From Acorus gramineus (Eukaryota > Streptophyta > Magnoliopsida > Acorales > Acoraceae): a stretch of 64,000 nt of DNA. Below the pieces are notes generated by a model. That model was given only the letters and a program-made list of their open reading frames with translations, did not search any database and was not told the origin of the DNA. Below are positions 5,455 to 10,000 of the stretch, one piece after another. The stretch is taken from assembly GCA_030737835.1 (NCBI GenBank), contig CM060848.1, positions 10,486,509-10,550,508 on the forward strand. Direction: 5' to 3'. A program made the position numbers and the translations under genes. The stretch's first letter is position 1. Each line of letters opens with the position of its first letter.

Positions 5455-5655
5455 CACATCAATTTCTTTTTTTAAAAAATTATATATTCTACCACTGAAG
5501 TGCATAATATAAAATGAAATATATATACTGAGATACAATAATATATTTTTTTTGACAAAATCATTTTTTTTTTACTCTATACACTATGATAGAACCCCAA
5601 ATACTATGATAATGTAATATATCTTATATATTGCGTTATCATAGTGTATGGAATG
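5455..5655 (-). repeat. AT-rich dispersed repeat family F2, copy a
   Basis: On the minus strand the blocks ATCATAGTGTAT, GTATCTCAGTATATA, TTTCATTTTATATTATGCAC and AGAATATATAATTTTT occur in the same order as at 23,515-23,665, 34,945-35,130 and 35,285-35,460 on the plus strand. No coding potential is seen. Probably a MITE-like family. Confidence 0.55.
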
Positions 5656-6240: not shown

Positions 6241-6275
6241 AAAAAAGATTGAATATATTAATGTTCAATCAATAC

Positions 6276-6843
6276 GGGGAGCTCTCTTTCCACCCCGTTA
6301 GTTCTCTAATCCACCCCCCAAATTTTTTTCCGGTGGATTGGAGAACCAAGTAGACAGAGGAAAAGAGTCTCGCCACAACCACTAGGAAGAGCACGGGTTG
6401 CACAGTGGAGTTCGTGCTTAAGGGGGTGCATGAGTGGGAGAAGGAGGAGAGGGTGGTCAGTGCTCCTCTTCGATGAACCGACATCGGGCCTCAATAACAG
6501 CTCCGCCTTCCAGGTGACCGAGCTTCTCACGATGATGACCCGCGCATGGGGACAAACGGTGGTTGTGACAGTTGTGACGATCCACCAGCTAAGCTATCGC
6601 ATTCTTCACCTTCCAATGGTGGGGCGGTTGAACATGTCGGCCTTGTGGGCATCTCCTCCTATTGGATTGAGTATATTGCCGTTGTCCTCCTCCAATCCTC
6701 CTTTCTCCCCTGCGATGCCTCCACCCCCAACCAACACTTTTCCTCTCTTTCTTTTTCCCCTTATTTTTCAACCCACCCCATTTTTTTGTTTTTTGTTTTT
6801 TTTGTGAGTTAGAGAATCAGAGGGGGTGAAAAGAGAGCTCTCC
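6276..6843. mobile_element. Pack-MULE upstream of FabZ
   Basis: A perfect 9-bp direct repeat AATCAATAC flanks the element (6267-6275 and 6844-6852), the hallmark length for Mutator-like insertions. Its ends form inverted repeats of about 35 bp: GGGGAGCTCTCTTTCCACCC on the left against GGAGAGCTCTCTTTTCACCC (reverse complement of the right end). No transposase is present. The interior instead holds a fragment of an ABC transporter gene (6454-6612), so this is a non-autonomous element that has captured host exon sequence. It ends 207 bp before the FabZ start codon and so lies in that gene's promoter or 5' flank. Confidence 0.88.
6454..6612 (+). pseudogene. Captured ABCG-type transporter ATPase fragment
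   Basis: The plus frame from 6430 encodes LLFDEPTSGLNNSSAF, then a helix, then VVTIHQLSYRILHL. This is the order Walker B (DEP), D-loop (SGLN, usually SGLD), and H-loop His (IHQ, usually HQP) of an ABCG half-size transporter nucleotide-binding domain. Walker A, the signature motif and all membrane segments are absent. The downstream residues to 6807 are low-complexity Pro/Phe sequence. The fragment lies wholly inside the Pack-MULE and cannot encode a working transporter. Whether it is transcribed, and whether it derives from one donor gene, is unknown. Confidence 0.8.
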
Positions 6844-6852
6844 AATCAATAC

Positions 6853-7050
6853 ACCCCAAAGGACAGCGTTGTTCGAGTTTCCAAACAGCACAGCCGATGA
6901 GAGCGGGAATAACAAAGCAGCTGCAGCGACAACACTACCACTGCCCATCGATCGCTCCGCCCGTCCGAAAAGCCTTTTAAACTACCTCCCCCCCGCCTTC
7001 GCCCTCATCACTTCCATTACTCTCTATCTCTCTCCCCTCTCCCACGAAAA
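6853..7050 (+). promoter_or_regulatory. FabZ proximal promoter / 5' UTR region
   Basis: The 198 bases between the Pack-MULE target duplication and the FabZ ATG become strongly CT-rich just before the start, as plant 5' UTRs often do. A weak TATA-like TTTTAAAC lies near 6975. The initiator context is AAAAATGGAA, a good plant start (A at -3, G at +4). The next in-frame ATG is only five codons downstream and would barely shorten the transit peptide. The transcription start cannot be fixed from sequence. Confidence 0.45.
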
Positions 7051-10000
7051 ATGGAAGCTTTGGCCATGGCGAATTCCACCTCAGTCTCTCCCCCGATCAC
7101 CCACTCCACCGCTTCCCGCCCCCGCCCGAGTCTCCGCCTCGACTTCCGCTCCCCTCTTCCTTCCATCTCCCTATCAAACCCTAGCTTCCCGTCGAGGAAG
7201 AGCTCGGTCGTCGTCCGATGTTCATCGGACGGCCCTTCCAATGAAGAGATCCCCATCGAGAAGCGTAAGTTTTCACAGTCTCTCTCTGACTAAAATCTCA
7301 CGGTGACTGGTTGACTAAAAAGTGTCTTTTGTGTTGATGCAGGGTTTCTGGCCTTCCCAACGATAATGGACATCAACCAGATCCGCAACATCTTGCCTCA
7401 CCGGTGATCCTTCTTTCCCTTCATGATTTTGCGTGTTGTTGAACGGTCTTGTTTGTTGATTTTCTTGTTTTGTTTTTTTCTTTATCTTTGGTTTAGGTTT
7501 CCGTTTCTACTAGTTGATAGAGTGATAGAGTACAACCCGGGGGTTTCGGCGGTCGCCATTAAGAATGTGACCATTAATGATAACTTCTTCCCTGGGCATT
7601 TCCCCGAAAGGCCGATCATGCCTGGTGTTCTCATGGTGGAGGTACTACCATTGGCCTCTTTTCTTTGTCATCTTTTCCTTCTTTTGGGTAATATGTTAAG
7701 CTATATGATTTCCCTAGACGTGCGCAAATGTGGCTTGTGTCCTATCATCCTGAATTAAGCAGTCTGCATTGGTAGAAAATGTTGATTGGGACTGTCCAAG
7801 CATGATTAGGGTAATAGTATTGATCAATTTTTTTGATATGCAGCTGATCTAATGATGAATCAAGCACATTATAGCTTTTGTTTTGTGAACGTCATGTTTC
7901 AGCATCTATTATTTTGTATTTATCTATTGTGCGAATTTGTATTTGTACTTGAATAATAGAGAGATCCCTTCATAAACATAACATTGGGTATGTGTTATAC
8001 TTATAAGAGGATGGAAATGGCAGAAGGATGCTCCACACATCCATTCTGTTTTTTGTCGATTGTCAGAGCTGGCAATAACTAGTGTGAGAAATTGGATGAT
8101 CGGGTGGAGGACAGCAGTTATTGCCTTTCATGACCTTGAGTTAGTTTGGGAGTTTGTGACACTCAATTTTTATTTACTCACCCAGTCTTCAGAAAGAATA
8201 TTGATTTTCCCTGGATCAGTCCTCCATGGAAATATCACACCATAGACTGTGCCAAAGAACTAACTACATAAATTTTTCACATTTTTCCTCCACATATGTC
8301 TAGTGCAAGTAATCACATCAATATAAGTTTGATACTGATCTTTGCTTGTTACCAAATTAGTAGTTTTAATTTATTCAAGAGACAATCTTGTTATATGAAG
8401 TATGTATTTGCTATTTTTGTTTTTCTATGAAGAATTGAATTTATGGTTATTCAATATTCATTGTTGCACTTTCAATTTCATCATGCTTATGGGTGACAGA
8501 TTTCGAATGGATCTGTCAGTGACCTTGATTTACTATTGTTTTTGCTGTGAGGAAAGCCGTTTTGTTACCTTGCTGTTGGTTGTTGCATCAAGCTCTTTGG
8601 AAGCCATCTACTGAGTTACCTTCTCTAAATAAAAGTTCAAAATTTAGACCCTGATGACAATCTCTTCATAAATGACAGTCACAACCTTCATAAATGACAA
8701 TCTCTTCTGTTGAGCATTGACATTGTCAGATTACATTCAAATGGGTAAATCTTTTTTGAGGAGAAAGGTAAGATCTTCCATATATCTATAAGGGAAGCTC
8801 CTTGAAAAAGGAGGGAGATGAGGGATCTCCTCAGAAAAGGACCAATGTTTAAATTAAGTTTGTCAATCTTGTTCTTCCAGGATATCATTGATTTCCAAGG
8901 TAGATTTTTTATTCAGTGTTTCATCACTTCTTTTTATTTCATTATGCCTAATCTTTTTCTTTTTTTTTATTCTCTTTTTTTATTTTTTTATTTTTTTGTG
9001 AGAAAAGGTAGACATCCTACCATGATTTGTTGACGTAAACATAGCACAATGTCAAGATACAAAATAATTAAGAAAAGGAAAAACTGTGTTTAAAAAGAAT
9101 ACAAAAGAAATCAGAGCTTGTAGAAGATATATCTACTGCCTCCAACGCAAACTATGCCGCTGAATCACTATTGGTTGCTAGTTTACCACCCTTGAACCCC
9201 ACCTTGCAAGCTACCGCACAATACTATCCAAAGTCTTTGATGAATTTTTAATGGATTGCCAGATAATCTCGAAATACATGCTGGAGTCCTCAAAACTACT
9301 TGGTTGTCAGTTATTCAAATCGCTGCACTGGCAAGAATGATGGATTGAGAGATTTTTGCCCTTTTACTTCTGTCTCCTTTAGATTTTAAGCTTTTCTCAG
9401 CTACCCAAATGTACTACTAGCATCCAAAACTTACGTTGAGGCCCATAGCCGCCTGTGGAGCTGTCCAAACCTTTCTTAGCAGCTTAACAAAGGCAGAATA
9501 AGTTAACTGTCATCTCTGGGGCAGATTCACATAATGCACATGTAGTCGACTTGCTCGGGTGTCATTTCGCTCGATAGACTTTCATCAGCACTCTTATCTT
9601 GGATTCTTGGTAAATCAGCCAAAGGAAAGTCCGGACTTTCAGGGGGTACTGTAATCCCTTAAACTTTCTTATTTTTGCTTTCACCAGATGACAAATTGGG
9701 TTATCCTTCCTCCAATCATGACATATCTTCAACATATTTTGAACTCCATATAACCACCACCACTCTCTTTCAAATTTGATTAGCAGAGGCAGGAAAGTTT
9801 GATTTAGTCATACGCCCTAGAGGCAATGGTAGACCCATACATCTAGTTGGAAACTCCTCCATAATACAAACCACCTGTTCCCCCCCTTCTCGCAAGACTG
9901 AATTTTCCACATTTATGTGCAGCATTGAACTTTTTGAAAAGTTAAGGTGGAGCTCAGACAGCAGCTTGAAACATTTTAAGATGAATATGACACCGCAGAT

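Follow-up and report, generated by a model that had tools for sequence, protein, structure and literature searches.

A Pack-MULE upstream of a FabZ-like gene in Acorus gramineus probably preserves an ABCG exon from before a hAT-like MITE became its intron

The 64,000-nucleotide stretch of Acorus gramineus contig CM060848.1 analysed here (the window) holds a short transposable element that carries a piece of an ABCG transporter gene. This element, a Pack-MULE, probably copied an ABCG exon in its pre-intron state, and a hAT-like MITE would later have become the intron of the donor gene, as it would in several other genes. A first-pass annotation, made from the sequence without database searches, had recognised the element, its ABCG piece and its position beside FabZ; it overlooked the intron by which the donor candidate differs from the captured exon, and the MITE nature of this intron.

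Just as had been claimed, a 568-bp element occupies positions 6276-6843 of the window, flanked on both sides by the perfect 9-bp target site duplication (TSD) AATCAATAC (Table 1). With the preceding C counted, the flanking repeat is 10 bp, (C)AATCAATAC, at 6266-6275 and 6843-6852; given the local base composition, a perfect 9-bp repeat would fall exactly at the ends of the terminal inverted repeats (TIRs) with a chance probability of 4.7e-6. The TIRs are identical at 19 of their outer 21 bp and show weaker similarity to about 40 bp, and the left end contains a hairpin with a DNA fold z of -3.1, equalled in none of 200 shuffles. A similar hairpin-like stretch is visible by eye at both ends of one relative (L009). 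The subterminal block shared with other elements is read as probable body of the family and not as a second captured gene. Its portion 6648-6722 had been suspected of being such a capture from an 81% match to C4:28207027, and was dropped because other TIR elements contain the block too; the translation of this portion matched only itself in the genome and no Pfam family. Elsewhere in the window, at 5580-5649, a short inverted repeat, TACACTATGATA ... TATCATAGTGTA, was noticed by eye and might be a very small hairpin element.

The end motif of the element occurs at 135 places in the 398.6-Mb genome (at most 3 mismatches in 21), against 21 for a reversed-pattern control, and the TIRs thus recur elsewhere, as the annotation required. 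Among 12 chosen TIR pairs, eight have a 9-bp duplication with no more than 2 mismatches, three of them being perfect, compared with 1 of 132 cross-pairs, and the remaining four show 3 to 7 mismatches. Left out of the 12 were second-choice pairs in L002, L016 and L053, the duplicate L020, and L070 (9 mismatches); with these five rows counted the proportion is 8/17. Two TIR relatives carry pieces of other genes, LRR-kinase-like in L094 and PPR in L069, both below the Pfam cut-offs; the LRR-kinase-like piece matches, at 71% and 62%, two long open frames of the same genome, on C6 and C3. Pfam scans of the other seven of nine relatives gave no convincing gene piece. On the minus strand of L017, positions 1763-1948 inside a TIR relative hold what we take to be an AP2/ERF piece (motif GTFPTAEMAARAH), for which there is no Pfam match. 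In L094 one right TIR, together with its flank GAGTCCAAAATG, stands twice, at 1008 and at 6473, 5.5 kb apart, which suggests a local tandem duplication. The MULE transposase domain (PF10551) is abundant in the genome, with at least 150 places scored among 1162 candidates; a comparison of these places with the TIR places by eye tied no transposase to the family of the window element, and the 6.5-kb span with TIRs in L094 has no stop-free frame above 195 codons. Three of the features by which Pack-MULEs are defined are present here: a TSD of about 9 bp (8-11), TIRs common to many copies, and a host fragment with a parent gene. Because of its TIRs, the 9-bp duplications and the relatives carrying other gene pieces, the window element is, by structure, a predicted Pack-MULE.

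In frame 6277 the element reads VLLFDEPTSGLNNSSAFQVTELLTMMTRAWGQTVVVTVVTIHQLSYRIL. The annotation had listed Walker B, D-loop and H-loop codons of an ABCG ATPase; the Walker B and H-loop residues are indeed intact, whereas the D-loop has lost its Asp (SGLD to SGLN). A stretch further upstream, in frame 6276, comes from the same ABCG gene, and the fragment contains neither Walker A nor the ABC signature. Pfam recognises no ABC domain in the fragment, returning only AAA_21 with E 0.21, so the ABCG assignment is based on the similarity of the fragment to a full ABCG gene elsewhere in this genome. This donor candidate lies at C2:28.209 Mb (L011), on the same contig as the element and 17.7 Mb apart from it, and its two exons encode ABC_tran (2.6e-30) and ABC2_membrane (1.3e-50) domains by Pfam. 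The nucleotide search proposed in the annotation thus found a donor-like gene: 148 of 189 aligned bases are identical (78%, K2P 0.27), with 18 nonsynonymously and 10 synonymously changed codons among 63, and genome-wide one 57-bp piece of the fragment reaches E 3.5e-11. A sliding-register control for this identity (maximum 67%) was not used, because it is not clean, including a register where blocks 2 and 3 still align. Within the 30 ABCG-related loci fetched (L022-L051, where L022 and L029 are one gene, the C2 gene itself), matches to the fragment are limited to the C2 gene and a 37-bp stretch of L025. The copy carried by the element is most likely a non-coding scrap.

Table 1. Features of the window (positions within the 64,000 nucleotides) and candidate MITE introns on other contigs; L011 is the donor-candidate locus
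Feature	Position or locus	Strand	Length	Remarks
Left 9-bp TSD AATCAATAC	6267..6275	.		direct repeat
Left TIR GGGGAGCTCTCTTTCCACCCC and weaker extension	6276..6315	+		end comparison, genome-wide pattern
Hairpin within left end	6301..6346	.		15-bp stem; fold against shuffles
ABCG piece 1, VEFVLKGVHEWEKEERV	6405..6455	+		frame 6276; matches L011 3997-4047
Junction of net 137-nt deletion relative to donor candidate	6456..6459	.		removes ABC signature; frame shifts
ABCG piece 2, Walker B and D-loop	6460..6513	+		frame 6277; end of donor exon 1, L011 4189-4242
Empty MITE target site, CTTCCAGG then TGAC	6507..6514	+		exon junction 6513/6514
ABCG piece 3, H-loop IHQ	6514..6606	+		start of donor exon 2, L011 4504-4587; 9-bp tandem duplication
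Subterminal block	6637..6722	+		common to L012 and L020/L021 (L012 also matches L072)
Right TIR	6804..6843	-		end comparison
Right 9-bp TSD AATCAATAC	6844..6852	.		direct repeat
TATA-like TTTTAAA between element and FabZ ATG	6975..6981	+		consensus match only
FabZ-like gene, start and first exons	7051..7641	+		FabA domain, PF07977, E 6.9e-18
P450 candidate intron	C32, near 12766664		683 bp	duplication AACCCAGG/AACCCAGG, 8/8; frame restored through haem-binding region
MYC2-like bHLH candidate intron	C55 and C72		207 and 206 bp	duplication 6/8 and 7/8
Lectin kinase candidate intron	C11		148 bp	GC donor; duplication 6/8; truncated MITE
ABCG candidate intron	C8		422 bp	two MITE-like stretches

The C2 gene is interrupted exactly between the bases that match 6513 and 6514 by 261 bp (L011 4243-4503; C2:28209742-28210002), and the element copy reads continuously across this position, CTTCCAGGTGAC. 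The interrupting sequence belongs to a hAT-like MITE family and is flanked by the 8-bp target duplication CTTCCAGG/CTTCTAGG (7/8), so that the uninterrupted sequence in the element corresponds to the empty site. Removal of the 261 bp at CAG|GTG...TAG|GTG restores a single frame in the C2 gene, and 13 of the 15 ABCG loci examined are uninterrupted at this site; the other two, on C2 and C8, both contain this MITE. The interruption has at least 41 matches at E<=0.001 across the genome, counting itself, a lower bound derived from scoring 40 of 110 first-look candidates. The twelve copies fetched are 257-258 bp long and align along their full length; nine start with CATAGTAACAAAGT and seven end exactly in ACTTTGTTACTATG. 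An 8-bp TSD with at most 2 mismatches flanks six of them, four perfectly, compared with 1 of 132 cross-pairs, and in the remaining six the mismatches number 3 to 7 at fixed offsets. The TIRs of the family are short and start YA, as hAT-type TIRs do, which together with the 8-bp TSD marks it as a putative hAT-type MITE; hAT elements have a TSD of 8 nt according to the available text of PMC8903248.

The coding sequence of the donor candidate comprises 661 codons and no stop. Under neutral drift the probability of such an open frame is 0.0025 at 0.13 substitutions per site, and the test is weak at lower ages (0.03 at 0.08 and 0.11 at 0.05). The terminal branch of the MITE measures 0.23 and its sister 0.13, and the donor-fragment K2P of 0.27 covers two branches; the divergence clock does not order capture and MITE insertion.

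The MITE family recurs as candidate introns in unrelated genes, namely the ABCG genes on C2 and C8, a P450 on C32, MYC2-like genes on C55/C72 and a lectin kinase on C11. When related MITEs are cut out at AG|G the reading frame is restored in four more genes besides the C2 ABCG gene; such frame restoration predicts that the MITE introns are spliced, and the joined translations contain P450, bHLH-MYC_N, B_lectin and ABC_tran domains by Pfam. The P450 site is spanned unbroken in the ten best other P450 rows. For the MYC2-like genes the MITE match is weak (61 bp at 74% plus the end motif), and paralogues at 67% are unbroken at the intron site. The two MYC2-like regions (L098 and L099) are near-identical and lie on two contigs, reflecting either a duplication or unmerged haplotypes. 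At the C8 locus, first met within the ABCG set and not through the AGG-based search, the first MITE has a 6/8 duplication one base inside its end, and the acceptor used lies further on (4/8 mismatches). This C8 gene (L033, C8:8190796) also seems to hold another intron upstream.

Except in the C2 gene, the AGG at candidate introns is not independent evidence, because the search required it. The five TSD bases outside AGG agree with at most 2 mismatches at four of five loci (C72 twin left out), against 3 of 20 cross-pairs. The motif AGGYNNAGTAACAAAG was found at 15 places and its control at 8, so that by itself it is no evidence. Two of the 15 were already known and three were left unfetched; of the ten newly fetched, four interrupt coding exons, the C55/C72 pair accounting for two of them, five lack a coding split and the last sits inside what looks like an ordinary intron. 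The motif YATAGTAACAAAGTAY occurs at 60 places (control 7), and the first MITE base is T in 11 of them: in 3 of 4 next to AGG against 8 of 56 elsewhere (Fisher 0.017, or 0.07 with the near-identical pair counted once). Two of these three are that pair and the third is no new intron; selection for GT as the cause of the C-to-T change at the first MITE base is suggestive only.

What could be the course of events? A non-autonomous Mutator-like element, its transposase presumably supplied in trans, would have copied part of the ABCG half-transporter gene at C2:28.209 Mb or of its ancestor, the exon being intronless at capture, and would have landed 207 bp upstream of FabZ. Later the ABCG exon would have received, at CTTCCAGG|TG, a hAT-like MITE of about 258 bp, which would have duplicated 8 bp and turned into a 261-bp phase-0 intron with AG|G at either end supplied by the TSD. 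At the first MITE position the consensus of the family has C and the C2 gene has T, which would complete the GT donor. The same family may have made introns in several genes. Capture before intron gain appears to be the simplest order, by parsimony. We also lean, if only slightly, towards regarding this hAT-type MITE family as a land-plant introner, with at least five independent introns at AG|G targets and the Pack-MULE preserving one pre-insertion target.

The identity of the donor and its state at capture could be read differently. The true donor could be a different ABCG paralogue without the intron, one that has been lost since or is not represented in the assembly; the identity of 78% is modest and the assembly is in 137 contigs, but the matches among the 30 ABCG-related loci, confined to the C2 gene and the short stretch of L025, make this rather unlikely. 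The donor might also have carried the MITE intron already, the element having captured a spliced copy in the form of a cDNA or processed copy. Sequence alone cannot separate this from an empty site, because splicing out the MITE gives the identical junction, and the divergence estimates overlap. It does, however, demand an extra reverse-transcription step that capture of an intronless exon does not require, given that most of the examined ABCG loci are uninterrupted, and we consider it unlikely. As for the introns themselves, the idea that the MITEs sit in pre-existing introns they did not create draws on one copy with an AGG|T start (L096) that by eye lies in an apparently ordinary intron, and on the C8 ABCG intron, where a second MITE-like stretch is present and the acceptor does not come from the duplication of the first MITE. 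This is quite improbable in view of the 8-bp duplications, which abut the exon junction at both ends in the C2 ABCG gene (7/8) and the P450 gene (8/8), and of the ABCG, P450 and MYC2-like paralogues that are uninterrupted at those sites.

The insertion beside FabZ invites a regulatory interpretation, and the first-pass annotation had suggested that the element supplies promoter sequence or a new transcription start to FabZ, or small RNAs against an ABCG gene. Plant siRNAs are 21-24 nt long, and the longest exact match between the element and the spliced donor is 19 nt, which speaks against the latter role. The gap of 207 bp between the element and the FabZ ATG at 7051, given in the annotation and reproduced here, would suit a promoter, and MULE TIRs are able to act as promoters according to the accessible part of PMC3310237; the TATA-like motif, however, lies downstream of the element. 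Neither suggestion gained support here, and we judge them very unlikely: the Pack-MULE is most likely a passenger beside FabZ. A 61-aa query of the FabZ-like gene has a single match in the genome, and there is therefore no paralogous empty site for the Pack-MULE.

The source of new introns is an unsettled matter in both plants and animals; a large survey, in its available text, found introners in 175 of 3,325 genomes and none in land plants (PMC9860276). A MITE family with several candidate introns, one of them with a perfect 8-bp duplication, and an intronless exon copy would make intron birth in a plant directly testable. Literature coverage being thin for subscription papers and preprints, we found no title on a plant introner or MITE-made intron family among the matches listed, and the accessible portion of a plant MITE review (PMC12595863) makes no mention of new introns or intron gain.

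The window element resembles the Pack-MULEs of rice, maize and tomato, as described in the available parts of PMC4858842 and PMC3310237, in being non-autonomous, with TIRs and a 9-bp TSD, in carrying a host gene fragment without a transposase, and in having relatives with different gene pieces. It differs from them in its TIRs of about 40 bp, 21 bp of them strong, against the usual 100-500 bp (PMC4858842, available part), and in that its captured exon lacks an intron present in the donor candidate. The MITE family, in turn, is like the introners of PMC9860276, as far as its accessible text describes them: both are DNA-transposon-like and repeatedly found as introns, the TSD supplies splice sites, and the coding sequence is unchanged after removal; what sets the family apart is five independent candidate loci with predicted splicing in one land-plant genome. 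Single transposon-made introns in Oryza and Zea, together with an AGGT insertion model, appear in the available text of PMC3443670. Those maize and rice introns share with the candidate MITE introns the conversion of a DNA transposon into an intron with AG|G taken from the target. Maize Ds, a hAT-type element, is said to have made one such intron (reportedly described by Giroux in 1994). The maize and rice cases, however, are listed as individual events. Here, in contrast, several genes hold candidate introns of a single MITE family, and a transposon still carries a copy of what is probably the pre-intron exon.
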